Assembly (NCBI GenBank): GCA_032622095.1
Contig: CP136061.1
Coordinates: forward strand, 258,076,077 to 258,140,076
Origin: Siphonodentalium dalli
Taxonomy: Eukaryota; Mollusca; Scaphopoda; Gadilida; Siphonodentaliidae
Length of the DNA: 64,000 nucleotides
Direction: 5' to 3'
Position 1 is the stretch's first letter, and every line of letters begins with the position of its first letter. Shown piece after piece: positions 19,900-62,555 of this stretch. A program made the translations under genes and the position numbers. The notes beneath the pieces are model-generated. The model did no database searches. It worked only from the letters and a program-made list of their open reading frames with translations, and was not told where the DNA came from.

Positions 19900-20757
19900 T
19901 AGCACGGTTAGGTTTATTATCATGATTCGTGCTATACTTACATAATATGACATGACAAAAAGGCTCGTTAACCACCCAATGTAAGATGGACACGAAGCTC
20001 GTTAACCATGGCCGCGTTATGTTTATTATCATGATTCGTACTATACTCACTCGATATAAGATGGACACGAAGCTCGTTAACCATGGCCGCGTTATGTTTA
20101 TTATCATGATTCGTGCTATACTCACTCGATATGATATGACCACGAAGCTCGTTAGCCATGGCCGTGTTATGTTCATTATAATGTTTCGTGCTATACTCAC
20201 TCGATATAAGATGACCACGAAGTTCGTTAACCATGGCCGTGTTATGTTTATTATCATAATTCGTGCTATACTCACTCGATATATGATGACCACGAAGCTC
20301 GTTAACCATGGCCGCGTTATGTTTATTATCATGATTCGTGCTATACTCACTCGATGTAAGATGACCACGAAGCTCGTTAACCATGGCCACGTTATGTTTA
20401 TTATCATGATTCGTGCTATACTCACTCGATATAAGATGACCACGAAGTTAACCATGGCCACGTTATGTTTATTATCATGATTCGTGCTATACTCACTCGA
20501 TATATAATGACCACGAAGCTCGTTAACCATGGCATCGTTATGTTTATTATCATGATTCGTGCTATACTCACTCGATATATGATGACCACGAAGTTCGTTA
20601 ACCATGGCCACGTTATGTTTATTATCATGATTCGTACTATACTCACTCGATATAAGATGACACGAAGCTCGTTAACCATGGCCACGTTATGTTTATTTTC
20701 ATGATTCGTTCTATACTCACTCGATACAAGATGACCACGAAGTTCTTTAACCATGGA
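19900..20757. repeat. 75-bp satellite, about 11 copies
   Basis: The unit contains CGTTATGTTTATTATCATGA, TTCGTGCTATACTCACTCGA and CACGAAGCTCGTTAACCATG. As 75 bp is 25 codons, the array stays open in several frames on both strands. The longest such frame, 248 residues on the - strand, encodes the unit repeatedly (for example MVNELRGH and STNHDNKHN). Codon-level conservation is no better than base-level conservation, so these are not called as genes. The same satellite occurs at 25316-25590, 26462-27309 and 31335-31622. Confidence 0.95.
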
Positions 20758-32845: not shown

Positions 32846-33286
32846 CTAGCTGATGTGTCCGACTTCGTCCGGGCTATTTAGGGATTTCTTGGTGATCGCC
32901 TCCGCCTGGGCAGAATATACAGCGTCTGATCAGACTATTGTTCGATCAGTCAAGAAACATACCTATATGAGCGTATATGAGCCAGACCAAGGACACGATC
33001 ACACGTGAAATTGGACCTGCCCATATTGTCCACAGGATCAATGTAGGTATACATACCAAATTTAAGTCGGATCGGTCGAGGTCCTGAAACATGCCTATAT
33101 GAGCGTATATGAGCGAGGTCAATGTCTGGTCAATGACACGTTCGTGTGTGAAATTGGACCAGCTCATATTGTCCATGGGATCAAAGTAGACTTACATGTC
33201 AAACTTGAGTCGGATCGTTCCAGCAGTTTTTGAGTCCATAAGACATACACAGGCAGACAGAAAGAAGTTCCAAAATATATAATAGA
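32846..33286 (-). mobile_element. Helitron-like unit, first of the array
   Basis: Begins CTAGCTGATGTGTCCGACTT, a worn copy of the family A end, and finishes CAAAATATATAATAGA just before the next CTAG. Inside, a stretch with GCCTATATGAGCGTATATGA and AAATTGGACC is duplicated (about 130 bp). Confidence 0.6.
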
Positions 33287-34335
33287 CTAGCAGGTTAGCC
33301 CGCCACTGGCGTGGTTGGTCAGAAACATGACATTTTTAAAATGATTTTGTTTTTATTTAATTATGATTTTATTTTTTAACAGTTAATTTTTTGTTTTATA
33401 TATATATATATTTTTTTTAATTTAATTTAATTTAAATTTTTTTTTTTTTAATTTTATTCGGCATTTTTCGGGCGGAAAAACTGACCCGATGAAATCCCCC
33501 CTTCCCTTCCTAGGAACGACAGCATCACACAACACGCATTTTTTTGTTTTTCATGAGTTAATTCATGGTACCCGTCCCTAAAAGACTGACCCGATGAAAA
33601 TTTCCCCTGTTCCTAGGACACCACACAACATGCATTTTTTTTTCATGACTTAATTCATGGTACCCGTCCATAACAGACTGACCCGATGAACATTTCCCCT
33701 GTTCCTAGGACAGAACACAACACGCATTTTTTTTCATGAGTTAATTCATGGTACCCGTCCCTAAAAGACTGACCCGATGAAAAATTCCCCTGTTCTTAGG
33801 ACATACAGATACAAGAATGACACAACAACCCATTGTACGATATAAACAATGTAGAGTTACGCCTCTTAGATAAATTCTGCCTTTTTAATCGAGATAAATG
33901 TATTTCGCGTTTGCATCAGTAGTTTCGTACGCATGGGATAGCGTTCGTCGCTAACATCTCCGAATATGGTCAATATAAAGATCGTTGATGCCTTCTCCCC
34001 CGAAGTGGCGTTTCACCTCGATGCCACCGCAGACTACCGAGATATCGCCCAAGGTGATTTGTGGGTACCGGTTTCAAGGTCAAGGTCACATCGGGCGGAC
34101 AAACTGTCCTGAAGAAAATCTCCCCCGTCCCTTGGAACCCCTAAGCACGAAATTTCGTTTCGATATACCCAGTTTCCGAGGCGGTCGATTCAGCCGTATT
34201 TATACTCGTGTATATAAACCCTCTTTAACAACGATACCCCATATACGAACGCTCTTTATTCATCACGCGATTAACCCATCAATTCCAACGACGGTAGCAG
34301 TTGAATGGTGAAGGAGTGGACTCATGGGCTCGCGA
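33287..34335 (-). mobile_element. Helitron-like unit, family B
   Basis: Starts CTAGCAGGTTAGCCCGCCACT, which on the - strand is a 3' end of the form hairpin (CGCC-AGT-GGCG), spacer, CTAG. The body is very A/T-rich and holds a tandem repeat of 91-105 bp (CTGACCCGATGAAA at 33481, 33586, 33678 and 33769). It meets a family A unit of opposite orientation near 34335; the exact joint is unclear. Confidence 0.6.
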
Positions 34336-34660
34336 ATGGTCAGATGGCACTGCCATTGGGATTTTATACTTACACAACGTCTTGGCGATATCTCGGGCAC
34401 CGATGGTAATTTATCTTTACGTTGAAACTTGATAATTAATGAGCGTGTGTATATGAGGCGCGTTTATATACTTGAGTGGAAATCAAATCGGGTTAAAAGG
34501 TCAAATCGGGTAAAACCGGATGGATTTCGACGGGTACTTTTGTCGGGTACTTTTGTTCGGGCAGTGTTTTGGACGGGTCAAATCGTGACCCCACTTGACC
34601 TTGGCCTTCAAAATAGACAATTCAAGGTCAAACCCCGGACGAAGTCGGGTCACCTTCTAG
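34336..34660 (+). mobile_element. Helitron-like unit, family A, 5' truncated
   Basis: Ends GTCGGGTCACCTTCTAG at 34660, followed by T. The same sequence that closes the next two units (GTCTTGGCGATATCTCGGGC to CTAG) is present, but the 5' half is missing. Confidence 0.65.
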
Positions 34661-34672
34661 TATATATATATA

Positions 34673-35589
34673 TCTATTATATATTTTGAAAGATCTGTGT
34701 GTGTGTGTATCTGTGGGTTTGTGTGTAATCGATGGACTCGAAAACGACTAAGCCAATTTCGATGAAACTTGGTACGTGAGGGTATTTTCGGGCCACGATG
34801 AACATAGGCCTATTAATTTGTTCGTGCGAGGTCAACTTTTCACGTGCCGAGGTCAAATCTGTTTTACGCCGTTTTGCGCTAATATATTTCAGTTCGGTGC
34901 TCACAAATCGATTCGATATAGCGCGAATAATAAAATGCCAGTCATATAATTTGCACGGTTAGAATCTGTGGCGTTTCCTCTTTCCAACGATATATAATAT
35001 GTATGTATCCGTTTTAGTTATCTGCCTCAATTATTAAGAAGAAGTGGTACGATCTTCTATCAGGGTAAAAACGATGCGTAACTTCTATGACGTCGTTAGA
35101 GGTCATAAAGTTAGATCACGTTAACTCTCACCCGGCCGATGCATTTGACTGTTTCAGACGTCTTGGCGATATCTCGGGCACCGATGGTAATTTATCTTTA
35201 CGTTGAAACTTGATAATTAATGAGCGTGTGTGTATATGAGGCGCGTTTATATACTTCAGTGGAAATCAAATCGGGTTAAACTGGCGGATTTTTACGGACG
35301 AAATTTGATGCATAGGGTATCTCGGTATCCGCTGGGCCGATTTCCCGGTATCCGCTGGGCCGATTTCCACCATTTTTGTGGTGTTGGACCCCACCTGACC
35401 TTGACCTTCAAAATGGTAAATTCAAGGTCAAATCGGGTAAAACCGGATGGATTTCGACGGGTACTTTTGTCGGGTACTTTTGTTCGGGCACTGTGTTTTG
35501 GACGGGTCAAATCGTGACCCCACTTGACCTTGGCCTTCAAAATAGACAATTCAAGGTCAAAGCCCGGACGAAGTCGGGTCACCTTCTAG
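34673..35589 (+). mobile_element. Helitron-like unit, family A (917 bp)
   Basis: Starts TCTATTATATATTTTGAAAG after an A and ends CACCTTCTAG before a T. A 3' hairpin (CCCGGAC-GAA-GTCGGG with one bulge) sits 11 bases from the end. TC at the 5' end, CTRR at the 3' end with a nearby hairpin, and no target duplication are the marks of Helitrons. The unit carries a TG microsatellite after its 5' end and TCAAGGTCA-type motifs near its 3' end. It encodes no Rep/helicase, so it is non-autonomous. Confidence 0.7.
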
Positions 35590-36526
35590 TCTATTATATA
35601 TTTTGAAAGATCTGTGTGTGTGTGTGTGTATCTGTGGGTGTGTGTGTTTGTGTGTAATCGATGGACTCAAAAACGGCTGAGCCAATTTCGATGAAATTTG
35701 GTATGTGGGGGTATTTTCGGGCCACGATGAACATAGGCCTATTAATTTGTCCGTGCGAGGTCAACTTCTCACGTGCCGAGGTCAAATCTGTTTTTACGCT
35801 GTGTTACGGGACTTTCATTTGAGTTCGGTGCTTACAAATCGGTTCGAAACAGCGCGAATAATAACATGCCAGTCATAATAATGACACTATGAGAATCTTT
35901 CGTGTTTCCTCTTTCCAACGATATATAATATGTATGTATCCGTTTTAGTTATCTGCCTTAATTATTAAGAAGAAGTGGTACGATCTTCTATCAGTGTAAA
36001 AACAATGCGTAACTTCTATGACGTCGCTAGAGGTAATAAAGTTAGATCACGTTAACTCTTAAACGGCCGATGCATTTGACTGTTTCAGACGTCTTGGCGA
36101 TATCTCGGGCACCGATGGTAATTTATCTTTACGTTGAAACTTGATAATTAATGAGCGTGTGTGTATATGAGGCGCGTTTATATACTTCAGTGGAAATCAA
36201 ATCGGGTTAAACTGCCGGATTTTTACGGACGAAATTTGATGCATAGGGTATCTCGGTATCCGTTGGGCCGATTTCCCGGTATCCGCTGGGCCGATTTCCA
36301 CCATTTTTGGGGTGTTGGTGTTCGACCCCACCTGACCTTGACCTTCAAAATGGTCAATTCAAGGTCAAATCGGGTAAAACCGGATGGATTTCGACGGGTA
36401 CTTTTGTCGGGTACTTTTGTTCGGGCACTGTGTTTTGGACCGGTCAAATCGTGACCCCACTTGACCTTGGCCTTCAAAATAGACAATTCAAGGTCAAAGC
36501 CCGGACGAAGTCGGGTCACCTTCTAG
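35590..36526 (+). mobile_element. Helitron-like unit, family A (937 bp)
   Basis: Directly abuts the previous unit: CTAG at 35586-35589 is followed at once by TCTATTATATA. It has the same 5' and 3' ends and the same internal order. It ends CTAG at 36523-36526, followed by a (TA)n tract. Confidence 0.7.
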
Positions 36527-36528
36527 TA

Positions 36529-36574
<46 letters not shown>
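36527..36574. repeat. (TA)n tract at the centre of a long inverted repeat
   Basis: About 48 bp of nearly pure TA lies between two CTAG ends that face each other. Family A units point toward it from both sides. Confidence 0.95.
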
Positions 36575-36575
<1 letters not shown>

Positions 36576-37315
36576 TAGAAGGTGACCCGACTTCGTCCGG
36601 GGTTTGACCTTGAATTGTCTATTTTGAAGGCCAAGGTCAAGTGGGGTCACGATTTGACCCGTCCAAAACACAGTGCCCGAACAAAAGTACCCGACAAAAG
36701 TACCCGTCGAAATCCATCCGGTTTTACCCGATTTGACCTTTTAACCCGATTTGATTTCCACTCAAGTATATAAAAGCGCCACATTTACACACGTAAAGAT
36801 AAATTACCATCGGTGCCCGAGATATCGCCAAGACGTCTGAAACAGTCAAATGCATCGGCCGGTTGAGCGTTAACGTGATCTAACGTTATGAACTCTAACG
36901 ACGTCATAGAAGTTACGCATTGTTTTTACCCTGATAGAAGATCGTACCACTTCTTCTTAATAATTGAGGCAGATAACTAAAACGGATACATACATATTAT
37001 ATATCGTTGGAAAGATGAAGCCACACAGATTCTAACCGTGCAAATTATATGACTGGCAATTTATTATTCGCGCTATATCGAATCGATTTGTGAGCACCGA
37101 ACTGAAATATATTAGCGCAAAACGGCGTAAAAACAGATTTGACCTCGGCACGTGAAAAGTTGACCTCGCACGAACAAATTAATAGGCCTATGTTACTCGT
37201 GGCCCGAAAATACCCCCAAATACCAAGTTTCATCGAAATTGGCTTAGTCGTTTTTGAGTTCATCGATTACAGACAGACACCCACACACACAGATCTTCCA
37301 AAAATATATAATAGA
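36575..37315 (-). mobile_element. Helitron-like unit, family A (741 bp)
   Basis: An inverted copy of the family: CTAGAAGGTGACCCGACTTC at its 3' end and CCAAAAATATATAATAGA at its 5' end. Internal order mirrors 34673-36526, including the GTTGACCTCGCACGAACAAA and ATCGTTGGAAAGA blocks. Confidence 0.7.
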
Positions 37316-38084
37316 CTAGAAGGTGACCCGACTTCGTCCGGGGTTTGACCTTGAATTGTCTATTTTGAATGCCAAGGTCAAGTGGGGTCACGATTTGACC
37401 GTCCAAAACACTGCCCGAACAAAAGTACCCGACAAAAGTACCCGTCGAAATCCATCCGGTTTTACCCGATTTGACCTTTTAACCCGGTTTGATTTCCACT
37501 CAAGTATATAAACGCGCCACATTTACACACGCTCATTAATTATCAAGTTTCAACGTAAAGATAAATTACCATCGGTGCCCGAGATATCGCCAAGACGTCT
37601 GAAACAGTCAAATGAATCGGCCGGTTGAGCGTTAACGTGATCTAACGTTATGAACTCTAACGACGTCATAGAAGTTACGCATTGTTTTTACCCTGATAGA
37701 AGATCGTACCACTTCTTCTTAATAATTGAGGCAGATAACTAAAACGGATACATACATATTATATATCGTTGGAAAGATGAAGCCACACAGATTCTAACCG
37801 TGCAAATTATATGACTGGCAATTTATTATTCGCGCTATATCGAATCGATTTGTGAGCACCGAACTGAAATATATTTGCGCAAAACGGCGTAAAAACAGAT
37901 TTGACCTCAGCACGTGAAAAGTTGACCTCGCACGAACAAATTAATAGGCCTATGTTACTCGTGGCCCGAAAATACCCCCACATACCAAGATTCATCGAAA
38001 TTGGCTTAGCCGTTTTTGAGTCCATCGATTACACACAAACAGATACACACACACACACACAGATCTTTCAAAATATATAATAGA
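37316..38084 (-). mobile_element. Helitron-like unit, family A (769 bp)
   Basis: Abuts the preceding unit and is nearly identical to it over its whole length. Small differences include a (CA)n length change before its 5' end. Confidence 0.7.
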
Positions 38085-38682
38085 CTAGAAGGTGACCCGA
38101 CTTCGTCCGGGCTTTGACCTTGAATTGTCCATTTTGAAGGTCAAGGTCAAGTGGGGTCACGATTTGACCAGTCCAAAAACACTGCCCGGACAAAAGTACC
38201 CGACAAACGTGCCCGTCGAAATCCATCCGGTTTTACCCGATTTGACCTTGAATTGATCATTTTGAAGGTCAAGGTCTGGTCGGGGTCACGATTGGATCCG
38301 TCCAAAACAATCGGTGAACAAAACTAACCCCACGTATCAAATTTCGTCGAAATCCCATCAAAATTGGCGATTTGACCTTGAAGTTACCCGATTTCAAGGT
38401 CAATGTCACGTCGCACGGGCGAATGAATATGCTTATGAGACTCGCCATAAGAAAGTACCCCCACATACCAAGTTTCATCGAAATCCCGTGATATTCGGGC
38501 GTTTGACCTTGAAATGACCCGATTTCAAGGTCAAGGTGACGTCGCACGGACAAATTAATATGCCTATGTTCGTCCCCGGCCGAAAATATCCCCACATACC
38601 AAGTTTCATCGAAATCGGCTGGGCCATTTTCGAGTCCATCGATTACAGAGAGACACACAGATCTTCCAAAATATATAATAGA
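38085..38682 (-). mobile_element. Helitron-like unit, family A variant (598 bp)
   Basis: Shares the ends but has a different core, with TCGTCGAAATCCCATCAAAA and TTCATCGAAATCCCGTGATA. The core is also found in the unit at 40295-40920, so a distinct subfamily exists. Confidence 0.7.
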
Positions 38683-39567
38683 CTAGAAGGTGACCCGACT
38701 TCGTCCGGGCTTTGACCTTGAATTGTCTATTTTGAAGGTCAAGGTCAAGTGGGGTCACGATTTTACCCGTCCAAAACACAGTGCCTGAACAAAAGTACCC
38801 GTCGAAATCCATCCGGTTTTACCAGATTTGACCTTGAATTTACCAATTTGAAGGTCAAGGTCAGGTGGGGTCCAACACCGTAAAAATGGTGGAAATCGGC
38901 CCAGCGGATACCGGGAAATTGGCCCAGCGGATACCGAGATACCCTATGCATCAAATTTCGTCCGTAAAAATCCGCCAGTTTAACCCGATTTGATTTCCAC
39001 TGAAGTATATAAACGCGCCTCATATACACACACGCTCATTAATTATCAAGTTTCAAGGTAAAGATAAATTACCATCGGTGCCCGAGATATCGCCAAGACA
39101 TCTGAAACAGTCAAATGCATCGGCCGTTTAAGAGTTAACGTGGTCTAATTTTATGACCTCTAACGACGTCATAGAAGTTACGCATCGTTTTTACCCTGAT
39201 AGAAGATCGTACCACTTCTTCTTAATAATTGAGGCAGATAACTAAAACGGATACATACATATTATATATCGTTGGAAAGAGGAAACGCCACAGATTCTAA
39301 CCGTGCAAATTATATGACTGGCATTTTATTATTCGCGCTATATCGAATCGATTTGTGAGCACCGAACTGAAATATATTAGCGCAAAACGGCGTAAAAACA
39401 GATTTGACCTCGGCACGTGAAAAGTTGACCTCGCACGAACAAATTAATAGGCCTATGTTCATCGTGGCCCGAAAATACCCCCACGTACCAAGTTTTATCG
39501 AAATTGGCTGAGTCGTTTTTGAGTCCATCGATTACACACAAACAGATCTTTCAAAATATATAATAGA
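38683..39567 (-). mobile_element. Helitron-like unit, family A (885 bp)
   Basis: Similar to the inverse of 35590-36526, including the block around ATACCGAGATACCCTATGCA. It ends CAAAATATATAATAGA before a family B head. Confidence 0.7.
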
Positions 39568-40294
39568 CTAGCAGGTTAGCCCGCCACCGGCGGCTTGTCC
39601 GAAACATGACATTTTTTTTATATTTTTTTTTAATTTTTAGCTCCACGCGTTTCAATAAGAAAAATTTGTACCCGGTAGCTCCACCCGTTTACGAGATCTG
39701 GTCTGCGCATGCGCGAAGCTGGCGTCGCACGGGCTCGGCGACCCGATAAAATTTGTACCCGGCGCAAGATACATTCACCTAGCAAATTTCAAGTCGATAG
39801 CTCCGCCCGTTTCCGAGATCTCGTCTGCGCATGCGCTGCACGGGCGTCGCACGGGCTCGGCGACCCGATAAAATTTGTACCCGGCGCAAGATACATTCAC
39901 ATAGCAAATTTCAAGTCGATAGCTCCACCCGTTTCCGAGATCTCGTCTGCACATGCGCTGCACGGGCGTCGCACGGGCTCGCCAATACGACAACGACCAC
40001 CGCCTGGTCAAACTACACACACGTACCAAGTTTCGTCCCGATCGGTCGAGAATCGTAGATTTGTATGAAGTACAACACACACACAAACATAAATATATAA
40101 GAGAGATATGTAAATTAGATAGATTGTATCAAAATATATAGGAGAGATATGTAAATGATCTACACACCATTACTGGTGTTTGTCAAAGTTTAGTGGGGTA
40201 TATCAATACTCATTCACGATCATATCATTGAGGTCCGGAGGGTGTGGGCTATCTCTCGAATACAAGGAGTTCTCAAAATATATAGAAGAGAAGA
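39568..40294 (-). mobile_element. Helitron-like unit, family B head with GC-rich 117-bp repeat
   Basis: Starts CTAGCAGGTTAGCCCGCCAC. The middle (39660-40010) has three copies of a unit of about 117 bp with GTCTGCGCATGCGC, GGCGTCGCACGGGCTCGGCG and ATAAAATTTGTACCCGGCGC. Frames on both strands stay open through this repeat because 117 is divisible by 3. Confidence 0.65.
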
Positions 40295-40920
40295 CTAGAA
40301 GGTGACCCGACTTCGTCCGGGCTTTGACCTTGAATTGTCCATTTTGAAGGTCAAGGTCAAGTGGGGTCACGATTTGACCAGTCCAAAAACACTGCCCGGA
40401 CAAAAGTACCCGACAAACGTGCCCGTCGAAATCCATCCGGTTTTACCCGATTTGACCTTGAATTGATCATTTTGAAGGTCAATGACTGGTCGGGGTCACG
40501 ATTGGACCCGTCCAAAACAATCAGTGGACAAAACTAACCCCACGTATCAAATTTCGTCGAAATCCCATCAAAATTGGCGATTTGACCTTGAAGTTACCCG
40601 ATTTCAAGGTCAAGGTCACGTCGCACGGGCAAATGAATATGCTTATGAGACTCGCCATAAGAAAGTACCCCCACATACCAAGTTTCATCGAAATCCCGTG
40701 ATATTCGGGCGTTTGACCTTGAAATGACCCGATTTCAAGGTCAAGGTGACGTCGCACGGACAAATTAATATGCATATGTTCGTCCCCGGCCGAACATACC
40801 ACCACATACCAAGTTTCATCGAAATCGGGTGGGACGTTTTCGAGTTCATCGCGAACACACACACAGACACACACACAGACACACACACAGACACACAGAT
40901 CTTCCAAAATATATAATGGA
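40295..40920 (-). mobile_element. Helitron-like unit, family A variant (626 bp)
   Basis: Close copy of 38085-38682. Its (CA)n/(CAGA)n tract near the 5' end is expanded. It ends CAAAATATATAATGGA. Confidence 0.7.
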
Positions 40921-41445
40921 TATATATATATATTTTTTTTTATTAATTTTTTAAATTAAGTTTTAAATTTATTTTGTTTTATTTAATTTTTCAATGAGTT
41001 AATTTTGCCTTTTTAATCAAGAAAAATGATGGTACCCGTCCCTAAAAGAGGTACGTTTGTGGGTCTTCAATGTGAAGTGATCTTTCCTCGGGAGGAAAAA
41101 CTGATCCGATGAAAATCACCCTTTTCATAGGAACCCCTGATTACGAAGAGAGACATAAGAATCACACAACACACTCATGTCTGGATACAGCCACGCTCAT
41201 GCCTGGCCCCAGACATAAACATCACACTACATGCTCTTTATCAACGACATTGCGGATACGAACGCTCTTTAACTATCAACGCGATTAACCCCACAGTGCC
41301 AAGGGCATCGACCGAAAGTGGAGAAGGGGTGGTCGGAGCGTCCCGTGTGATTTTACCCTCAGATAGAAAGTTTGGTCTCAATCGGTCCAGCTGTTTTCAG
41401 CACATATATATACGCATATACGGAAGTCTCAGAACATATAGTAGA
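40921..41445 (-). mobile_element. Helitron-like unit, headless family B
   Basis: A/T-rich body of family B type (GGTACCCGTCCCTAAAAGAGG) ending AACATATAGTAGA before the next CTAG. The CTAG head is missing. Confidence 0.45.
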
Positions 41446-42036
41446 CTAGCAGGTTAGCACGCCACTGGCGAGGTTCGCTTCATGGGTTTATTCGAACAAG
41501 CAATTGCAACGGCTTCCGAGACACGTGTGCTGCACCTAGGTCTAACAGTTCGTCAAAATCCGTCAGTTTTAACCGATTTGAGCTTGATTTGATCATTACA
41601 AAAGTACAACTAGGAGCAAGTTTGAGCTCAATCGGTTTGAGTCTATAAAGGACATACATATATATCATTGCGTGTACCCGTTTCAAGGTCAAGATGAAAA
41701 TCTTCCCAGTTCCTTGGAACACCTAAGTAAGAAATTAAGTACGAAATTTCGTCTCGAGACGGTCGATTGAGCCGTGTTTATACTCGTCGTGTATATAAAC
41801 GCTCTTTACCAACAACACCGCGGATATGAACGCTCTTTAACTATCACGCAATTATCCACTCCCTGCCGACGACGGCGACAGGGGGAGGGAGAACGAATTC
41901 ACATAGCTCATCAAAATTGGTGCGATGAGATTGTCTGTGGGATTTACCCTTAGATAGGAAGTTTGGAATCAATCGGTCCAGCCGTTTTCGAGCCTATAGA
42001 GGACAGATATACGGAAGTCTCAAAATATATAGTAGA
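41446..42036 (-). mobile_element. Helitron-like unit, family B
   Basis: Starts CTAGCAGGTTAGCACGCCAC and ends CAAAATATATAGTAGA. It contains GGTCTCAATCGG-like and AACGCTCTTTA blocks common to the family. Confidence 0.6.
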
Positions 42037-42735
42037 CTACCAGGTTAGCTCGTCACTGGTGGCAATCGTCAGAAACATGACTTTAATTATTTTGTTTTTC
42101 AATGACTTAATTCTGCCTTTTTAATATTTTTTTAAAATATTTTTTTGTAATCAATTTTTTGAATTTAATTTAATTTAATTTGTTTAATTAAATTTTATTT
42201 TACAATATTATTAAATTTTATTTTTTTTAATTAATTTTTTAATTTTATAATTCTGACCTTTTAATCAACAGAAATGATGGTACCACGCCCGTGATGGTAC
42301 CCGTCCCTAAAAGAGGTCTGATTTACGGTACATCGGGCGAAAAACTGACCCGATAAAAATGTCCCTCGTTCATGAGAACCCCTAAGTAAGAACACAGGCA
42401 TACAAATCAAACAGCACGCTCATGTCTGAATACAGACACGTTCATGTCTGCACCCAGACATAAGAATCACACTACACGCTCTGTATCAACGACACTGTGA
42501 TACGAACGCTCATGAACCATCAATGCGATTAACTGCCAAGGACGGTGACCGGGTGGAGAAGGGGTAATTGGAGCTTTTCAAAAACAGCGCGACGACGCGA
42601 ACCGTGTGCTTTTACCCTTAGTCTTAGATAAGAAGTTTGGTCTCAATCGGCCCAGCCGTTTTCGATTCAATAAAGTATATATATATATATACATATATAT
42701 ATTTATATACGGAAGTTTCAAAAATATATAGCAGA
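42037..42735 (-). mobile_element. Helitron-like unit, family B with altered terminus
   Basis: Starts CTACCAGGTTAGCTCGTCAC, so the CTAG terminus reads CTAC. The 5' side ends AAAAATATATAGCAGA. Confidence 0.55.
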
Positions 42736-42914
42736 CGAGCAGGTTAGCCCGCCACTGGCCTGGTTGGTCAGAAACATGAGATTTTTTGTAATTATTATGT
42801 TTTTATCTAATTGTTTTTAAAAATTTTAATATTTAATTTTTTTTTTTTTTTTTAATATTAATTTAATTTTTTTAAAATTTAATTTATGTTTTTTTGAATT
42901 TCTTAATATTTATT

Positions 42915-43114
42915 TAATGCACCCAGGGCCGATAAGGTTCGGGGTGATTTATGTGGTTCTTTGATCCTGTCATCCGGCAGACATTCCGGATTTTCGGTAC
43001 GATCCGTTCCGTATCGGCCGAACTTAAAGTCCGCATTTTACATCCGCCCGGAATTCTGCCTCCTTCCGGTAACTGAAAAAAGCAATTCACTCTTGAATTA
43101 TACGCGTCGCGCTC
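42915..43114 (+). repeat. Ngaro-like split repeat A1
   Basis: 200 bp beginning TAATGCACCCAGGGCCGATA, nearly identical to A2 (48100-48299). The copies part after ATCGCGCTC or GTCGCGCTC. Confidence 0.95.
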
Positions 43115-43296
43115 GGTTGTGTCGTCTATTCCTATCTGTTTCCATCCGTCACCGTGTTTCTTCAACAGCCTTCATTTATTTGTCTATCATCTTGTTCCTT
43201 GTGCGTCCTGTTCCGTCGGCGTTACCTATTTTCGTGGGTCGCGCACGTGTTTCCCTGTTTGTGTTTGTCGTTCGGTGGCATTCCCGTATTTCTCCT

Positions 43297-45114
43297 ATGG
43301 TTCGTACAGGATCTCGCGGTCGGGCCCGCGACCGTTCCGTCTCGTAGCAGTCGCCAGGATGCGTCTGCCAGCCCGTCTCGTGCTGGTCCTGCTTCCACTA
43401 AGTTCCAGTGACCGTGTTAGGCCTTCTTCTCGGGTTTCGGCCAGTGTGTCATCTGTGGCTGTTTCACGGGTGCGCGGCCGTGGTCAGCATTCGCGTGGCA
43501 GGCCTGCTCGTGGCTCTGGACGGGGACGCCGCGCCTCTCGCGGCCGGATTTCCCATTCTCGTGGCCGCGATCCTGTTCGTCAGCCTCGTTGTCAGCCCAG
43601 TCGTCAGTCTCGTCGCCAGGCTAGTCGCCGACAGGATGGTTCTCCGCACCCAAGTTTCTGCGCTATGAATCCCGGTCACCATTAGCGTCTCCTTTGTCGA
43701 CCTGTCCACGCCGCAGTTCTGATGACAGCTCCACTTCTCTCCGCCGCCGCGAGGATTCCCGTGTGGCTTCAGTGATACACCGACCGAACGCTCCGGCAAG
43801 AGACAGAACTGAGCCGGGTAATGCCTTATTTAGTTTTCCATCCTCGCTGGTCTCCCCTTGGGACGCCCCCATGCCAATTCCTACGGCGGTAGATCTGATG
43901 GCTTTGGCTCTCACGTTTCCCGATATTCGCGACAAAATTTTCTGGGGGCGTCGTGCTTCCGGGCGAATCTGCGTTGCGCCCAAGGCTTAAAATAAGTGGT
44001 GTGACATGGACAATTGTCAGACACCAAATTCAAATTTTTATAGGTTGTCAGGCTCTGCTTTGAAACTGTCTGACATAATGTCAGGTTGAGAAATTGATGT
44101 ATTTTTATGAAAATATCACTGGTAATGTGATATTTTGCAAACATTTATAGAGCATGCTGTTAAATGAAATTGGATTGAGTAATTTATGGATCACGTAACA
44201 CCACTGGGATCAGAGCAATTGAAGAATTCTATAACCTTAGAATTGAAATCGGCAAGTATGTTTAATGTTGTTGAGGTGGGGCAGATTGCATTAAAAAAAG
44301 CGAAAATTGAGAAGAGGAACATAATTGGGGGATTATACATCATTATTAGTTTAAATTGGTATTTATTATGGGTGATAAAAAAGACATGTCGGGCCTCATT
44401 TCGAAATGTCAGACCATGTCTGTTTGGTGCCTGACAAAATGTCAGATAGTCAAATAAAAATTATTTTAAGGCTTGGTTGCGCCAAGCGGGCATGCTGCTC
44501 CAATAACGTCTGTTGACTCGTGGACCGATGCTTTTCTCACTTTCGTTTCGGTGTACCTCGACGTTCACCATGAATCGTCGGCCCAGCCCCTTTTGTGTTA
44601 CCTGCGCACCATTCGTTGGGCGGCGGCTAAATGTGGGGGATCTTCCTGGCGGGTGTACGATACCCAATTTCGGTTGAAGTGGGATGAAAATACAGCTACT
44701 CCTTGGGAGACCATCGACCCTAACATTTGGCTGCTGGTCATGACGCCCCAGGTTCGGCAACCTCCGCAGCCGACTCCGCCTCCGGTTCGTGCCTCCGGGC
44801 GTGCATACTTTTTTCCCACGCGTCCGGGCCATCCCAGTCCCGTCTGTTTTGAATTCAACGCCGGCCGCTGCTCCTGGCCAAACTGTCGTTTTCGACACAT
44901 CTGCAACATCTGCTCAGAGCCTCATGCCGCAACCGCTGCCCATGGTCAAGACTTTCGTCGCTCAGCCCGCGACGGTCGCCAGCAACGTCTACCAGCTCGT
45001 CTCTTCCGCCATTATTCTTGTCTATTTGTGTTGGTGCCAAGTCGCGCGGGAACTCCGGTTCGGTTTTACTCGTGGTTTTCCACTCTATTATACTGGCCCG
45101 CGTATGCCAACTGA
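43297..45114 (+). pseudogene. Gag-like ORF of the Ngaro-like element, broken
   Basis: The likely start is ATG 43297 (MVRTGSRGRARDRS), followed after a frameshift by an Arg-rich, nucleic-acid-binding-looking stretch (VRGRGQHSRGR, RGRRASRGRISHSRGR). A third frame (43694-43990) holds DLMALALTFPDIRDKIFWGR. The MITE interrupts it, and the frame resumes at about 44475 with SVDSWTDAFLTF and a WRVYDTQFRLKW block. It then shows a CCCH finger, C-x7-C-x4-C-x3-H (CFEFNAGRC..NCRFRH), followed by CNIC, before ending at 45114. The final part overlaps the RT frame. A finger at the end of a basic protein fits the RNA-binding first ORF of DIRS/Ngaro elements. At least two frameshifts besides the insertion are needed to follow it. 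Confidence 0.7.
43989..44467. mobile_element. MITE (479 bp) inside the Ngaro-like gag
   Basis: AAGGCTT stands on both sides (43982-43988 and 44468-44474) as a 7-bp target duplication. The insert starts AAAATAA and ends TTATTTT and has subterminal inverted repeats, TGTCAGACACCAAA and TTTGGTGCCTGACA. CTGACA/TGTCAG motifs recur within. It is AT-rich against the G+C-rich gag and encodes nothing. Superfamily unknown. Confidence 0.85.
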
Positions 45115-45964
45115 CGCTCCGAACCTCAAGTCTGCTCGTGACCGTCCTGATGTCGTCCGGGAAAAGATCCTTAAGGCAGGTCGCCTTGGTCGCATTGCTG
45201 GTCCTTTCTGCGCTCGTCCAATTCCAACGTTCCGCGTGTCGCCGTTTGGACTGGTGCCTAAACATGAACCCGACTCACTCCGTCGCATCCATCACCTCTC
45301 CTATCCGGCAGGCCAGTCGCTCAATGATCATATTCCGCGCGAATTCACTGTCACATCTACCTGTTTTGACGCTGCTGTTGCCACCATCCAGTCCCTTGGG
45401 ACCGGGACATTGCTCGCGCGCGGGGATTTAGAGGTTGCATATCGTAATCTTCGCATCTACCCGGGCGATTTCGATCAACTTGGTTTTAAACTGGACGACA
45501 TGTTTTATTTCGACAACTGCTTTCCTTTCGGCTGCAGCGTGTCGTGCGCAACTTTTGAAAAATTCTCAACATTTTTGGAATGGGTTGTTCAGCAGCGGTT
45601 CGGCAACCCACACATATTGTACTACTGCGATGACTTCCTGTTCTGTGGTCCGCCAGCCACGTCCCTGGCCTCGGACAGTCTTGACATGTTTCATCGCGTT
45701 TGCGCTGGTCTTGGCGTACCTATTGCTCATGACAAAAAAACGGTCTCGCCCACCTCGAAGCTCTGCTACCTTGGTCTCGAACTCGATACGTTGGCTAACG
45801 CGGTGCGTCTCCCTGCTGAGAAGCTCACAGCTATTCAGTCCAAAATCTCTCTGGCTTTGCGCTGCCGTAAAATCTCGGTCGTGAACTACAGTCGCTCATT
45901 GGCTCATTACCATTTGCGTGCAAGGCGGTTCGTCGGGCCGCCCATTTTGTCGTCGCTTGATTGA
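44789..45964 (+). CDS. reverse transcriptase of the Ngaro/DIRS-like element
   Basis: The 391-residue frame has the DIRS-type RT blocks in order: GRIAGPFCARPIP (about 134-146), SPFGLVPK (151-158), RRIHHLSYPAGQSLND (165-180), LLARGDLEVAYRNL (208-221), FPFGCSVSCATFEKFS (245-260), ILYYCDDFLFCG (276-287) and an LGLELDT block with RLPAEKL. The catalytic box reads YCDD where YLDD is usual in these elements; both Asp residues are kept. The real start is uncertain: the frame is open through the overlap with gag, and RT homology starts near residue 85. A frameshift near 45918 separates it from the RNase H part. The enzyme would copy element RNA into DNA in a particle formed by the Gag-like protein. Confidence 0.85.
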   Translation: MPPGVHTFFPRVRAIPVPSVLNSTPAAAPGQTVVFDTSATSAQSLMPQPLPMVKTFVAQPATVASNVYQLVSSAIILVYLCWCQVARELRFGFTRGFPLYYTGPRMPTDAPNLKSARDRPDVVREKILKAGRLGRIAGPFCARPIPTFRVSPFGLVPKHEPDSLRRIHHLSYPAGQSLNDHIPREFTVTSTCFDAAVATIQSLGTGTLLARGDLEVAYRNLRIYPGDFDQLGFKLDDMFYFDNCFPFGCSVSCATFEKFSTFLEWVVQQRFGNPHILYYCDDFLFCGPPATSLASDSLDMFHRVCAGLGVPIAHDKKTVSPTSKLCYLGLELDTLANAVRLPAEKLTAIQSKISLALRCRKISVVNYSRSLAHYHLRARRFVGPPILSSLD

Positions 45965-46569
45965 TGCCCTGCAGGGATTTTCTAAGCCGCATCAAACATC
46001 CGAATTAATTCTGGCATGCGTGCCGATCTGGCCACGTGGTTACAGTTCTTCACGTCATTCAATGGGATCTACCTTTTCCCTTCTGCGACCTGGCTCCATG
46101 ATACCGACATCAATTTCCACACGGACGCTTGTGGTCAGTCCGGCGGCTTTGGCGCTTATTTCAACGGCCTTTGGGCTTTTGGCACGTGGTCCCTTCCTTG
46201 GCATGCTTTGGGCCTGACCCGCAATATGGGTCTCCTCGAGATGTTCCCCGTCTTAGTGGCATCAGCGTCTGGGGGCGTCGCCTCCGGAATCATCGCCTCC
46301 ATTTACACTGTGATAACATTACCGTGGTCCGCGCCATCAACGACCAAACTTCCAAATGCAAGCCGCTCATGGCCCTGTTGCGCCAGCTGGTCCTGCTGCT
46401 CCTGTCTCACAACATCTCCTTGCGTGCTTCATGGATCGCGTCTCGTGATAATGCTCTCGCTGACAGCCTCTCTCGTTTCCGGATGAAACGTTTCCGTCGA
46501 CTGGCGCCGTCCACCGCCCGAACGCCAACACCATTTCCCAGGTGCCTGTGGACCTGCGTCGACATGTAA
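45950..46569 (+). pseudogene. RNase H region of the Ngaro/DIRS-like element, frameshifted
   Basis: Two frames together give an RNase H fold. First is INFHTDACGQSGGFGAYFNG (catalytic Asp in HTDA) with WHALGLTRNMGLLEMFPVL (Glu) at 46016-46270. A second frame then gives LHLHCDNITVVRAIND (second Asp) and ASRDNALADSLSRF (last Asp), ending at 46569. The break lies near 46255. A third frame upstream (IDALQGFSKPHQTSELILAC) links it to the RT. The domain would remove RNA from the hybrid during replication. Confidence 0.8.
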
Positions 46570-46874
46570 CGCTGCTTTTGACGTCCTCCCGGGCGCCATA
46601 TACTCACCGCACGTATCGCACCGCCATACAGGCTTATCTCGTTTTCGCACACCAGCATCGCTTGGCTGTTTCCTGGCCGCTCCGGAACACGCTATCGTCG
46701 GGTTTATCGCGGGGCTTCATCGCTCCCAGCATTCTGCTTCAACCATTTCCACCATTTCGTTCGGGTAGTGCTACCTATCTGGCGGATCTGGGCACCCCTT
46801 ACCATGCCATCCTACACCGGGGTCGTTGGCGGTCTGATGTTTGTCGTCGGTTCGTCCACTCGACATCTGCTTAG
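46542..46874 (+). pseudogene. tyrosine recombinase of the Ngaro/DIRS-like element, internally deleted
   Basis: The 110-residue frame starts with a SAM-like N-terminal part (SRAPYTHRTYRTAIQAYLVF) and ends with the C-terminal hallmark SATYLADLGTPYHAILHRGRW followed by SDVCRRFVH. Full recombinases of this group are some 200 residues or more. The stretch carrying the first catalytic Arg is missing between the two parts, and the HxxR block has become PPFR. It cannot be active. It identifies the element as tyrosine-recombinase type instead of integrase type. Confidence 0.8.
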
Positions 46875-47002
46875 TCTCGTTTCAGTAGCCAGTATCTGGG
46901 TCTACTGGGCTCACCGGCGTGCTATGCGGCGTCCTGTTGGCCAACATCTCCAGCTGTCCAGCCGCGGCGCTTCTGTTCTAGGATCTGCACTCGTGGGATG
47001 CT

Positions 47003-47464
47003 GTGGGGCGATTTCCACGCCCGTTCGCCCGGGAGCTCGCCGCTTGTCCGCAGTCTCGGCATCCTACCCACATCATCCAGCTTGGCTCGAACGACCTCAC
47101 AGCCGGTGGGTACCGTGAATTGCGTGCAAATGTTAAGCGGGAACTTTCATATGTGCATGAATCGTTGCCTGACTGCACCCTTATTTGGTCACAAGTATTC
47201 CCGCGCCGCTATTGGCACAACGCCCATCGCCCGAGTATTGGTGCTCGCCAGCACCGGGACTTTAACCAACGCATGTTGGGCTTCGTCTTACATCGCGGGG
47301 GTCGTGGCATCAAGCACCCAGCCATTTGCGCTTCTGATAAGGGCATGTTTCGTTCAGATGGGATCCATCTCTCCCCCGTCGGCAACAATATCTATCTGAA
47401 TCGTCTCCAGGGCGCCCTGGAGACCTTCCTGGCATCTGACACTATGGTTTTCCCGGTGGTTTAA
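47003..47464 (+). pseudogene. SGNH/GDSL-type hydrolase domain of the Ngaro-like element
   Basis: The 153-residue frame shows two SGNH blocks: HIIQLGSNDL (block III, Gly and Asn of the oxyanion hole) at about residues 22-31 and SDGIHLSPVGNNIYLNRL (block V, catalytic Asp and His) at about 117-134. The N-terminal block with the Ser nucleophile should lie upstream; in another frame (46860-46980) IWVYWAHRRAM and GQHLQLSSRGASVL look like its surroundings, but the usual G-x-S is not visible. The domain is therefore partial. Third ORFs of this kind are known in Ngaro elements; their substrate is unknown to me. Confidence 0.75.
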
Positions 47465-47698
47465 CTGTTTCATTGCTGTAATTGGGCATGGAGCTCCTGG
47501 TTTGGGGGAGTGCTGCGCACTCTATGGCGGTCCTGCAGATGGTGGTAGTGGTAGTGTCGCCATAGCGTTATAACCTGTCTGGTAACTTTGATGGGTGGCT
47601 TATCAATAGTAGCTTAGTATGTTTATGACTGCGCAGTCATCTTATGCTTATTCGAGAGTGCTCTCGAACTGTAGCCTGAGTGTAATATTCCAGGCCGT
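47465..47698 (+). other. 3' non-coding part of the Ngaro-like element
   Basis: Lies between the hydrolase stop and repeat B1. It includes GTGGTAGTGGTAGTG, a perfect hairpin GACTGCGCAGTC (47627-47638) and a second one, TTCGAGAGTGCTCTCGAA. Confidence 0.7.
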
Positions 47699-48103
47699 TG
47701 CTTAGCCACATGGAGTTGGGCTGTCCAGTGGTCTCTACTGCCATTCATGCGTCGCACTCGTTGGGCTTCTACCTGTTGGCCGTGTGTGCTTATTGCTTAG
47801 GGCGCCTCATAGCAATTCTTGGGCGCCGGCTCCGAATCGTACCTTAGCTCGTCGGGCCATGCTCATGCCTGCGCTGTACAGCAGTATTTCTTCAGCGTTC
47901 TCTGCGTCGGCTTCTCGTCAGAGCGAAGGCTCTGCTTAATTGGTTTTCCATGCGTATGGGCTATCTGCAGGACAAGCTTATAATGTTACATTATAGCTGA
48001 GATCATACCCCACTCATGTGTTGTCGTTTAAATATTCCGTGCAGTAGTGGCAGGGCTGTCACTGGTGGGGGTAGTGTCTCTTGGATCGGAGTGATAACAT
48101 AAT
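47699..48103 (+). repeat. Ngaro-like split repeat B1
   Basis: About 405 bp from TGCTTAGCCACATGGAGTTG to GGAGTGATAACATAAT, matching B2 (48528-48932) with few changes. Confidence 0.95.
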
Positions 48104-48299
48104 GCACCCAGGGCCGATAAGGTTCGGGGTGATTTATGTGGTTCTTTGATCCTGTCATCCGGCAGACATTCCGGATTTTCGGTACGATCCGTTCCGTATC
48201 GGCCGAACTTAAAGTCCGCATTTTACATCCGTCCGGAATTCTGCCTCCTTCCGGTAACTGAAAAAAGCAATTCACTCTTGAATTATACGCATCGCGCTC
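48100..48299 (+). repeat. Ngaro-like split repeat A2
   Basis: Begins in the TAAT shared with B1. It differs from A1 at only a few positions, for example CGTCCGGAATTC against CGCCCGGAATTC. Confidence 0.95.
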
Positions 48300-48527
48300 C
48301 CTCCCTCCCCCCTTGGAGCTCCATGCCCCGCTTTGTTCGGCGTCCCGAGTGGCACGCCATATTCATTGTTCTGTGATGCCTGTTTTGTTTTGGGCCTAGG
48401 GCCCTGTGTGTTTGGATCTCGTTGCTGCTGTTTGTTTTCCCTTTCAGGTGCTGTGTCATCAGTGCCATTGATCCAGCTTTGGTGCGTCCTGCAGGGGTAA
48501 CTTTGGTGTTACCCGCCCATACCACGG
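48300..48527 (+). other. spacer between A2 and B2 of the Ngaro-like element
   Basis: A C-rich start (CTCCCTCCCTCCCCCC) and a TTGTTTTCCCTTTCAG stretch are notable. It has no counterpart between A1 and the gag start. Confidence 0.6.
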
Positions 48528-48932
48528 TGCTTAGCCATAGGGAGTTGGGCTGTCCAGTGGTCTCTACTGCCAATCCTGCGTCGCACTAGTTGGGCTTCTC
48601 CCTGTTGGCCGTGTGTGCTTATTGCTTAGGGCGCCTCATAGCAATTCATGGGCGCCGGCTCCGAATCGTACCTTAGCTCGTCGGGCCATGCTCATGCCTG
48701 CGCTGTACAGCAGTATTTCTTCAGCGTTCTCTGCTTCGGCTTCTCGTCCGAGCGAAGGCTTTGCTTAATTGGTTTTCCATGCGTATGGGCTATATGCAGG
48801 ACAAGCTTATAATGTTACATTAAAGCTGAGAACATACCCCACTCATGTGTTGTCGTTTAAATATTCCGTGCAGTAGTGGCAGGGCTGTCACTGGTGGGGG
48901 TAGTGTCTCTTGGATCGGAGTGATCACATAAT
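48528..48932 (+). repeat. Ngaro-like split repeat B2
   Basis: Ends GGAGTGATCACATAAT; the final TAAT equals the left-edge TAAT at 42915. Confidence 0.95.
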
Positions 48933-49699
48933 TTGTTTTTAATTCAATTTAATTCTTTTTATATTTTTTTATTTTTTTAATTTTAAATTGTTTTAATTAA
49001 TTTTTTGAATGAATTTTTTGTTTCTGGCCCAATATTGACCCGATGAAATCCCCCCTTCCTAGAAACGACAGACAACGCATTCTTTGTTTTTCAATGAGTT
49101 AACTCATGGTACCCGTCCTAAACTTCACCCTTTCTAGATACCCATCCCTAAAAGAGGTATGATTTTTTTTAACCTGCCCGTGGCCATTGAACAGCCCCTG
49201 ACAGAGGTTGTCTACCCTTACGAGATGGTCAATAGTCCCTGCAAAGAGCGGACAGTCAATTAATCCCGTAATCAATTAATCCCGTCGTGAAATCTCCCTG
49301 CGTAATATTTTGTAAACATGAAAGTGTCCCCGTTCCTAGGAACGACAGGCAATACTCAGACTCACAGATAAGTATAGTTATGCCTCTTGGATCTGAATCG
49401 ATAGCGAAAACCACACTCTTTATGTAAACACTGTGGAAAGGAAACGCTCTTTATCTATCAACGCTATTAACCCGAAGTGCCGATTGTGGTGATTTTGATG
49501 ATTGGGAGTGGATAATGGGTGCTCAGAGCTTCTCCGAAACGCGACAATGACGGTGTCCGTGGGTTTTACCCTTATATAGGAAGTTTGAGTCCAATCTGTC
49601 CACGCGTTTTCGATTCTATTAAGTACCCACACACACACACACACATATATATACATATACATATATATATATATACGGAGTTCTCAAAATATATATAGA

Positions 49700-50757
49700 C
49701 TAGCAGGTTAGCCCGCCACTGGCGTGGTTGGTCAGAAACGTGACATTTTAAAAATTATTTTGTTTTTTTTTGTTTTTTTATTTTAATTTAATGTTTTTTA
49801 AATTTAATTTATGTTTTTTTGAATTTTTGAATTTAATTCTTTGTTTTTCAATGAGTTAATTGTGCTTTTTTCTGGCGGAAAAATTGACCCGATGAAATCC
49901 CTCCCCCCCCTTCCTAGGAACGACAGACAACGCATTCTTTGTTTTTCAATGAGTTAATTCATGGTACCCGTCGTAAACTTCCACGTTCCTAGGAACAACA
50001 GACTTTTTAATCAAGATAAATTATGATACCCCCGCAAAGAGCGGACAGTCAATTAACCAGAATGTAGAGTTACGCCTCTTAGATAAATTCTGCCTTTTTA
50101 ATCGAGATAAATGAATTTCGTCCCGCATCCGTATTTTACGCATGGGGGAAGTCGTTTAGCTATGTCGATTCAATGAATTAATTCATGGTACCCATCCTAA
50201 ACTTCCCGATTCCCGTGGGTGTTTACACTTATATACGAAATTTGAGCTGAGTTAATTCATGGTACCCGTCCTAAACTTCCCCGTACCTAGGAACAACATA
50301 CTTTTTAATCAAGAGAAATTATGATACCCCCGCAAAGAGCGGACAGTCAATTAATCCCGTCGTGAACCATAATGTAGAGTTACGTCACTTAGATCAATTC
50401 TGCCTTTTTAATCGAGATAAATGCATTTCGTCCCGCATCCGTATTTTACGCATGGGGTAGTCGTTTATCTATGTCGATTGCAATAAAGAGCGTTCGTCGT
50501 TAACAACTCCGTATATTGTCAATATAAAGATCGTTGATGCCTTAAACCCCGAAGTGGCGTTTGCGGTGATTTTGATGATTGGGAGTGGAGAATTAGTGCC
50601 CAGAGCTTGTCCAAAATGCTACGTGGACGATCCCCGTGGGTTTATACACTTATATACGAAATTTGAGCTCGATCCGCGTAGCCGTTTTGGATTATATGAA
50701 GTACCCACACACATACACACACATATGTATATAAGGAAGTCTCAAAATATATATATA
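49700..50757 (-). mobile_element. Helitron-like unit, family B
   Basis: Starts CTAGCAGGTTAGCCCGCCAC and ends TCTCAAAATATATATATA before the next CTAG. An internal duplication of about 300 bp repeats ATAAATTCTGCCTTTTTAAT with GGTACCCGTCC and CGCAAAGAGCGGACAGTCAA. Confidence 0.6.
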
Positions 50758-51715
50758 CTAGCAGGTTAGCCCGCCACTGGCGGAAATAGTCAGAAAAATA
50801 AAAAAAATTAAGTTTTAATTAATTTTTTTAATTAATTTTTTAAATTAAATATTTAATTTATTTTTTTGTTTTTCAATGAGTTAATTTTTTTGTTTTTCAA
50901 TGAGTTAATTGTGCCTTTTTAATTTTTTAATTTAATTTTTTGTTTTTAAATTTTACCCGAGGTTGGTCAGAAACATGACATTTTTTAATTTTTTGTTTCT
51001 GGTGGAAAAATTTACCTGATGAAATCCCCCATTCCTAGGAACGACATACAACGCATTCTGTGTTTTTCTTTCTTTTTTAACCTGCCCGTACCCGTCCTAA
51101 TGTCATGAAATCTCTCTGCATAATATTTCGAGCGATAACATTGCATTGCATTGAAAACAAACGTCTCTCTACGATAACATTGCATTGAAAACAAACGCTT
51201 CCCGTCGTGTCTCTCTGCATAATATTTCGAGTCTGCCGCACCCGTCCTAATGTCGTGAAGTATCTCTGCATACTATTTCGAGCGATAACATTGCATTGAA
51301 TTGTCAGTCTCTCTGCATAATATTTCGAGTCTGCCGTACCCGTCCTAATGTCGTGAAATCTCTCTGCATAATATTTCGAGCGATAACATTGCATTGAATT
51401 GTCAGACTTCCGTCATACAGATAAATAGATAGCGAAAACGACGCTCTTTATATAGACACTGCGGAAAACGAACGCTCTTTCTATATCAACGCTATTAACC
51501 ACGAAGTGCCGATTGCGGTAATTTTGATGATTGGGAATGGAGAAACGGTGCTCTGAGCTTCTCCAAAACGCGACCACGGTGGTTTCGGTATGATTTTACA
51601 CTTACATACGAAATTTTAGCTCAATCTGTACACGCGTTTTGGATTCTATGAAGTACCCACACACACACATATATATACATACGTAGTTCTCAAAATACAT
51701 ATATAGATATATAAT
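50758..51715 (-). mobile_element. Helitron-like unit, family B, last of the array
   Basis: Starts CTAGCAGGTTAGCCCGCCAC, runs through an A/T-rich body and a short tandem array and ends near TCTCAAAATACATATATAGA. Confidence 0.55.
51100..51412. repeat. nested tandem repeat, 4-5 copies
   Basis: TCTCTGCATAATATTTCGAG alternates with GCGATAACATTGCATTGAA and CCCGTCCTAATGTCGTGAA. Copy lengths vary because the last two blocks are sometimes dropped. Confidence 0.85.
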
Positions 51716-62424: not shown

Positions 62425-62555
62425 TAAAGATGGCATCCATGATGGCTGCCATTTTTTGTTAAGTCAGATGATGCAATAATAGCGAAACATCGTGTCATAT
62501 TTTACACATGTATTCATTTTATAAAGCTAAGACATAACGTCAGGACCCGGACTAT
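62425..62555. mobile_element. diverged fragment of the 4.56-kb element's inverted repeat
   Basis: AAGATGGCATCCATGATGGC, a GCAA-AATAGCG-AA block, TTTTACACATGTATTCA and AAGCTAAGACATAA follow the same order as 55865-55995 in the left arm. The ends are missing. It abuts the 62-bp satellite. Confidence 0.65.

Follow-up and report, generated by a model that had tools for sequence, protein, structure and literature searches.

Helitron stacks in the scaphopod Siphonodentalium dalli: evidence for repeated insertion at resident 5′ ends that resemble the preferred target

In a 64,000-nucleotide stretch of the Siphonodentalium dalli genome (hereafter the window: contig CP136061.1, positions 258,076,077 to 258,140,076), Helitron units of two main families, A and B, abut one another in a block that extends from position 32,846 to 51,707. 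We propose that this block is a stack built mainly by repeated insertion of new copies at resident 5′ ends, which resemble the target that the elements prefer, and we regard this as the probable explanation. An earlier note on this DNA had described the block but missed that the target motif, as judged from sequence, lies within the element's own 5′ end. The transposase would place new copies between A and T, with a preference for sites whose 3′ flank has TATA at +6 to +9, so that each resident family-A 5′ end, with TATA in register and the A of the old target upstream, would offer a fresh, oriented target. New copies would settle just 5′ of older ones, giving head-to-tail order and CTAG^TC junctions (the caret marks a junction or an insertion point), and families with related 5′ ends would interleave. 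In family B, the well-placed target would lie four bases inside the terminus, and insertion there would cut off TCTA and leave it upstream. Some stacks may then be amplified into satellite-like arrays by a second process, whether through multi-unit segments transposing together or through unequal crossing-over.

On the evidence of their sequence, the units are canonical Helitrons. They have canonical termini (5′ TC, 3′ CTRR), and in families A and B a short hairpin lies approximately 10–15 bases ahead of the 3′ end. Family A starts with TC(T/C)ATTATATATTTTGRAAGATCTG and ends with CCCGGACGAAGTCGGGTCACCTTCTAG, its hairpin CCCGGACGAAGTCGGG being followed by 11 bases to the end, while family B starts with TCTACTATATATTTTGAGA, TCTATATATATTTTGAGA and similar sequences, ends with CGCCAGTGGCGGGCTAACCTGCTAG and has the hairpin CGCCAGTGGCG (both hairpins were read in the sequence, not folded). 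A third family, C, from other arrays, starts with TCTCATATATATTTTGAAGACC and ends with CATCGGCTAG. We searched 2.23 Gb of the genome in 9 contigs; genome-wide totals are complete, and individual matches were inspected among the first 100 listed per search. The −1 base was A at all 41 family-A 5′ ends without a preceding CTAG or CTTG (among 100 matches listed), and T occupied +1 after 99 of 100 family-A and 97 of 100 family-B 3′ ends listed. Two empty sites were recovered. In one, a stack lies within a 56-bp minisatellite and the joined flanks correspond to the neighbouring units (6 matches, ≤2 mismatches); in the other, an A copy lies within a B unit, the uninterrupted form of which has 11 copies in the fetched loci (≤3 mismatches). 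In both cases, insertion occurred between A and T, with neither duplication nor loss. Assignment to the Helentrons or HINEs, which insert at TT, was rejected, insertion here being at A^T.

An autonomous partner resides in an array at C1:114,621,815–114,642,242, whose units measure 756, 856, 8,809, 857 and 9,150 bp and in which every junction is CTAG^TC. The 9,150-bp unit has the same ends as the array units and contains a 1,693-amino-acid open reading frame with HAH and YVCKY motifs, the first 1,618 residues of which cover Helitron_like_N, PIF1 helicase and Pif1 2B domains (PF14214, PF05970, PF21530). It therefore combines a Rep (HUH, paired tyrosines) with a Pif1-type helicase, as canonical Helitrons do. 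In the 8,809-bp unit, the frame is broken into one piece of 982 amino acids and another of at least 515 (the latter reaches the end of the fetched sequence). The long units and the neighbouring 856- and 857-bp units are 96% identical over their first 157 bp and 97–100% identical over their last 29 bp. The Helitron identity put forward in the earlier note is upheld by these results, including the two checks that it had suggested, namely empty sites split between A and T without target duplication and an autonomous partner with the same ends. Separately, a second RepHel family was observed (L043–L045), five copies of which have the same Rep score; a pair lying 27 kb from each other on C3 shows 99.1% identity across nearly the whole 10-kb piece and represents a local duplication. 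At position 2420–2423 of another locus (L019), two family-A copies lie head-to-head with TA between them; the decamer upstream, ATAATAGATA, precedes 3 of the 100 listed family-A 5′ ends, two of these being L019 itself.

The preferred target was read from 68 distinct flanks, obtained from 200 listed 3′-end matches (families A and B together) once flanks that are another element, duplicates and flanks opening with a TA microsatellite had been dropped. T was found at +1 in 94% of them. TATA began at +6 in 40 of the 68, whereas among 9,766 background A^T sites taken from the window outside the array it did so at 101; of the flanks without it at +6, 3 had it at +8 and 15 at +5 or +7. Together with the base before it, the 16-base start of family A reads A^TCTATTATATATTTTG, in which TATA falls in the register of the target motif. 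B termini were scored in two variants. TATA stands at +6 in the 5′ termini of A, of C and of the shorter B variant (TCTATTATATA, TCTCATATATA and TCTACTATATA); the longer B terminus, TCTATACTATATA, is without it, but an internal A^T four bases in has it. An inserted copy keeps the target's original A immediately ahead of it, so that its 5′ end, where it carries TATA in this register, once more presents A^T with the motif suitably spaced. Stacks would then grow on the 5′ side, in a single orientation and with families mixed.

The order of events can be read where one family has interrupted another. Copies of A cut the family-B 5′ terminus at TCTA^TACTATATA, four bases inside it. The resulting junction, CTAG^TACTATATATTTTGAG (the B terminus minus TCTA, directly after an A 3′ end), is present at 293 places in the genome, and 294 family-A 5′ ends carry an extra TCTA ahead of them, with A before it. 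The A-internal site TCTA^TTATATATTTTG, which has no TATA at +6, gave 1 hit in the genome, compared with the 293 at the B-internal site, which has it. If A has cut at TCTA^TACT, the missing TCTA is expected at the 5′ side of the inserted stack. For the 100 listed A3′^TACT junctions, a TCTA-prefixed A 5′ end was found upstream in the right order within 1.5 kb in 24 cases and within 5 kb in 33, whereas shifted positions gave 0.016 and 0.055, and the wrong side 1 and 3, for the two distances respectively. This search missed remnants preceded by CTAG. We therefore fetched 10 of the 67 junctions unmatched within 5 kb, picked by position before the upstream sequence was seen, and a CTAG-preceded TCTA remnant was present in seven (L048, L049 (longer), L050, L052, L053 (two copies), L054 and L055). 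Two of the other three (L047, L051) are stacks running past the fetched piece, and the third (L056) contains a chimeric unit. The latter unit joins a B-like 5′ end (TACTATATATTTTGAGAC) to a family-A 3′ end, possibly as a chimera formed when a 3′ end was passed over. TCTA bookkeeping is one-for-one through the whole stack in L033 and X84, and it fits in L032 and in the A unit of X29 within the part fetched or examined. Of the two mechanisms that the earlier note had offered, end-to-end insertion is thus directly supported where it can be tested, that is at the split B 5′ ends, often with TCTA opposite; amplification of a multimer type can be seen in some arrays of identical units.

Genome-wide, family-A ends are abundant. 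At ≤2 mismatches, there are 14,117 5′ ends and 16,740 3′ ends, with 0 matches to the reversed-pattern control in either case. The search for ends that the earlier note had called for also revealed how often they abut: exact family-A 5′ ends number 3,037, and CTAG lies directly ahead of 1,362. Among 100 listed 5′ ends, 58 followed CTAG, 1 followed CTTG and 41 had A at −1; the 58 comprise 46 with TTCTAG, as in family A, 10 with GGCTAG, and 2 with TGCTAG, as in family B. The first printed base of these 100 was restricted to A, C or G, and the exclusion of T favours CTAG rows; the proportion is therefore better estimated from the 1,362 of 3,037. When the 3′ patterns were shortened so that the flank was shown as well, A gave 9,335 matches (control 89) and B 8,604 (control 4). 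Per 100 listed, this flank was a further Helitron 5′ end in 36 cases for A and 71 for B with a strict pattern, and in 35 and 72 with the first pattern used.

That copies simply clustered by chance in AT-rich DNA, with no special pull from resident 5′ ends, is scarcely credible. The targets are AT-rich and many isolated copies lie within TA repeats, yet nearly half of the exact 5′ ends follow CTAG (the 1,362 of 3,037 above) even though such ends make up only about 0.3% of the estimated motif sites (14,117 A 5′ ends against 5.2 million ATN4TATA sites, extrapolated from 43.5 kb). A more substantial alternative is rolling-circle read-through, in which a bypassed 3′ stop or recopying of the circle yields a multimer of one element that is then inserted whole. 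Circles in which CTAG joins TC have been described (PMC4778049), and bat and silkworm arrays have been attributed to bypassed termination (PMC4067079), in the portions of these and the other papers cited here that were available to us. In the array L012, units of 746 and 740 bp alternate, with 0 substitutions within each type (one unit, at 0.1%, excepted). The two types differ by 2.6%, and therefore a mixed pair came first and was multiplied later; a copy of the dimer is also found within a TA repeat, 12 bp downstream from a unit of greater divergence, an arrangement in favour of the pair having moved as one piece. Both the identical, in-register units and the recurrence of their dimer are as read-through would have it. 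The same holds for 25 adjacent B–B pairs, in which 0 substitutions were found at 3 of 16 edge junctions versus 0 of 9 internal ones, although several of the 25 were misparsed, with other units in between, and one of the three identical edge pairs has a 507-base length difference; the numbers are too small to conclude that B edge junctions are mostly concatemers. A single-element multimer cannot, however, yield cross-family junctions or A-split B termini with a TCTA remnant. Moreover, the 35 neighbouring A–A pairs (33 directly abutting, one with a B unit between and one with a 12-bp TA spacer) show substitution divergence of ≤0.15% in 2, ≤0.5% in 5 and ≥2% in 20. All five pairs at ≤0.5% are among the 33 that abut directly, and the remaining 28 exceed 0.5%, which weighs against read-through even though some arrays do have identical units; we consider it an unlikely origin of the stacks in general.

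Less probable still is that unequal crossing-over or segmental duplication enlarged a few chance neighbours into arrays. Such growth would suit the higher-order array L046 (C1:161,328,000–161,337,999), in which 13 complete and closely similar family-A units fall within the fetched 10 kb with a period of approximately 730 bp and both unit types and a G-less junction, CTA^TC, recur; it would also suit L009–L011, where a pair of a short and a long unit is duplicated at approximately 99.3–99.5% identity. It leaves unexplained how the first exact CTAG^TC junctions, the interleaving of families and the split B termini with their remnants came about, and we regard it as improbable. Rolling-circle multimers or duplication do explain a subset of identical units, and in these arrays multimers and crossing-over cannot be told apart. 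The listed junctions of the L046 array continue to at least C1:161,347,941.

Repeated insertion at resident 5′ ends also has observations weighing against it. TATA is absent from +4 to +8 in 10 of the 68 targets, and a strict requirement for TATA at +6 was rejected on this ground and because the B edge is used without it. This edge, where TATA occurs only at +3, +8 and +10, is matched 238 times by A, compared with 293 at the B-internal site, and therefore either the terminus exerts a second attraction, being perhaps itself recognised (for example if the transposase nicks there when launching a copy), or some of the edge junctions come about in another way. From the motif by itself, self-insertion of approximately 0.3% would be expected, far under that observed, so that recognition beyond TATA is called for. 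The TCTA tally is uneven in several loci. In X25, where one further TCTA was predicted, four were found (6 in total versus 3 TACT junctions); remnants exceed TACT junctions in L027 (3 versus 2), L053 (2 versus 1) and the fetched part of X30 (2 versus 1), and fall short in X26 (2 versus 3) unless its dimers moved together. For X28 and X34, no tally was obtained because the 5′ end next in line could not be located. Nearest-neighbour divergence revealed no clean age gradient along stacks and was not used as evidence. The ends of the RepHel family intended as a negative control (L043–L045) were not found, its three 10-kb pieces being alike nearly throughout. Finally, the proof from split termini covers hundreds of junctions, against thousands of A–A edge junctions. 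We infer that these more numerous junctions share their origin with the split B junctions and that the transposase treats target motif and 5′ end as one substrate.

In the window itself, about 17 Helitron units were parsed from both ends between 32,846 and 51,707, of which 14 lie on the minus strand; the 3 on the plus strand fall at 34.6–36.5 kb. Three of the 17 have a single recognisable end: no 3′ end could be recognised for unit B6, and no 5′ end for a plus-strand A unit and a B unit. The 16-base 5′ motif TC(T/C)ATTATATATTTTG occurs 12 times at ≤2 mismatches versus 0.51 expected from shuffling. Direct abutments of a 3′ and a 5′ end number 11. One is on the plus strand; the other ten are on the minus strand, and at 2 of these the 3′ end is mutated to CTCG or GTAG. 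At an additional junction at 50,758, CTAG^TATATATATATTTTG, the downstream unit is without its TC. On the minus strand, the order is B B B B B B A B A A A A, then the inverted A block, a B and a last unit that closes the block at 32,846 with a 3′ end of neither A nor B type. The earlier description of a head-to-tail array of at least 15 units in two alternating families is partly confirmed. The number of units, their ends, the direct junctions and the two families with different 3′ hairpins all proved real; the layout is not purely head-to-tail, as the three inverted units had been overlooked, and the families interleave only in part, with runs of B and of A. The right-hand boundary, previously placed at 51,715, lies at 51,707 by the A^TC rule.

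The 5′-most unit of the minus-strand stack, B1 (50,758–51,707), has a 5′ TCTATATATGTATTTTG after A and a 3′ CTAG. It is followed by B2 (49,700–50,757), whose 5′ side is TATATATATATTTTG right after CTAG, and by B3 (42,736–49,699), which ends in the mutated CTCG and contains a reverse transcriptase (RT)-bearing insertion; its two pieces would be a single unit split by that insertion. Further along the minus strand are B4 (42,037–42,735), the unit ending in GTAG, B5 (41,446–42,036; ends parsed) and B6 (40,921–41,445), with a 5′ end at 41,445 and no 3′ end recognisable ahead of the next unit. The first family-A unit, A1 (40,295–40,920), is inserted at A^TC within a TA-rich stretch, and B7 (39,568–40,294) is flanked by two A units, both junctions being direct. 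A2 (38,683–39,567), A3 (38,085–38,682) and A4 (37,316–38,084) all have parsed ends, and A5 (36,575–37,315) forms the 3′ end of the minus-strand stack. Next to it, a TA microsatellite (36,527–36,574) separates the tail-to-tail stacks. On the plus strand lie an inverted A unit with parsed ends (35,590–36,526), a second (34,673–35,589) with a direct CTAG^TC junction to the next unit, and the 3′ terminus of a third (34,634–34,660), for which no 5′ end was found. The 3′ terminus of a minus-strand B unit (33,287–33,309), again with no 5′ end found, abuts the last unit (32,846–33,286, minus strand), whose 5′ end is like that of family A and whose 3′ end differs (CCCGGACGAAGTCGGACACATCAGCTAG).

The RT-bearing insertion in B3 (42,920–48,930) gives a weak RVT_1 match (E 1.7e-07) and has repeated blocks near 42.9 and 48.1 kb, and also 47.7 and 48.5 kb, a layout reminiscent of DIRS-like elements. 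Family-A units between 36,600 and 41,000 appear to contain many AAGGTCA or GGTCAAGGTCA repeats, which resemble nuclear-receptor half sites; if present in further family-A copies, these might have a bearing on regulation. Outside the block, a 62-bp repeat forms a tandem array of approximately 23 copies from 62,544 to 64,000, running to the window end, and a 75-bp repeat forms one of approximately 10 copies at 19,982–20,756.

With their TC and CTAG ends, 3′ hairpin, RepHel protein and insertion at A^T without duplication, the elements resemble Helibat and Helraiser of bats. Helraiser inserts de novo preferentially into AT-rich DNA, with the strongest bias 3′ of the insertion site, and the study also points to an AT-rich left-end region near the cleavage site; in the available portions of that account, neither feature is tied to self-targeting or arrays (PMC4778049). 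In the elements described here, by contrast, the preference is resolved to TATA at +6, and abutment on CTAG is frequent. The 3′-side preference of Helraiser, which comes from an independent experimental system, agrees with the self-target model. Tandem Helitrons are already known (PMC5876387, PMC5148889, PMC12628747, PMC4067079), including distantly related ones directly side by side in bat and maize (PMC12628747, PMC4067079), and in the arrays of plants, bats and silkworm the units likewise lie end to end, up to satellite-like blocks. Plant arrays consist of truncated units produced by rolling-circle replication, many of them with several 5′ ends but only one 3′ end (PMC12628747). The present arrays differ from those of plants, bats and silkworm in that units mostly keep both ends, families are mixed and hundreds of junctions represent separate insertions; the truncated make-up of the plant concatemers was not seen, the parsed units being mostly two-ended. 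Tandem cases are also reported for FoHeli and other fungal Helitrons, where, for one case, both successive insertions at the 5′ end and copying by rolling circle were considered (PMC5148889); those cases are few and the choice was left open in the portion available, whereas here split termini and the motif decide hundreds of junctions. According to a review, insertion-site preference produces dimers of fly elements (PMC12628747).

In the available portions of the literature surveyed, most subscription journals lying outside it, no self-target explanation for Helitron arrays was found. A related principle operates in IS608 (IS200/IS605 family): this single-stranded HUH transposon has a target similar to the site at which its own left end is cleaved, but the element differs from Helitrons in family and recognition logic, is bacterial and has no RepHel. 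The elements of S. dalli are of a known kind, and their array-building route is a new, testable variant. As far as the papers were available, arrays are put down to missed termination, or the choice between insertion and rolling-circle copying is left open. A single genome with more than 1,000 exact junctions and hundreds of split termini renders the order of insertion readable and the question testable, and suggests that the cleavage signal of an element, the target it chooses and the birth of satellite-like blocks are directly linked. More tentatively, and perhaps with somewhat less than an even chance of being right, the Helitron left terminus may by design copy the 3′ half of the preferred target, self-stacking then being built into this group of elements. 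If so, rolling-circle transposons would have a general route to satellite-like DNA that does without read-through, and interrupted termini would record a readable order of events.

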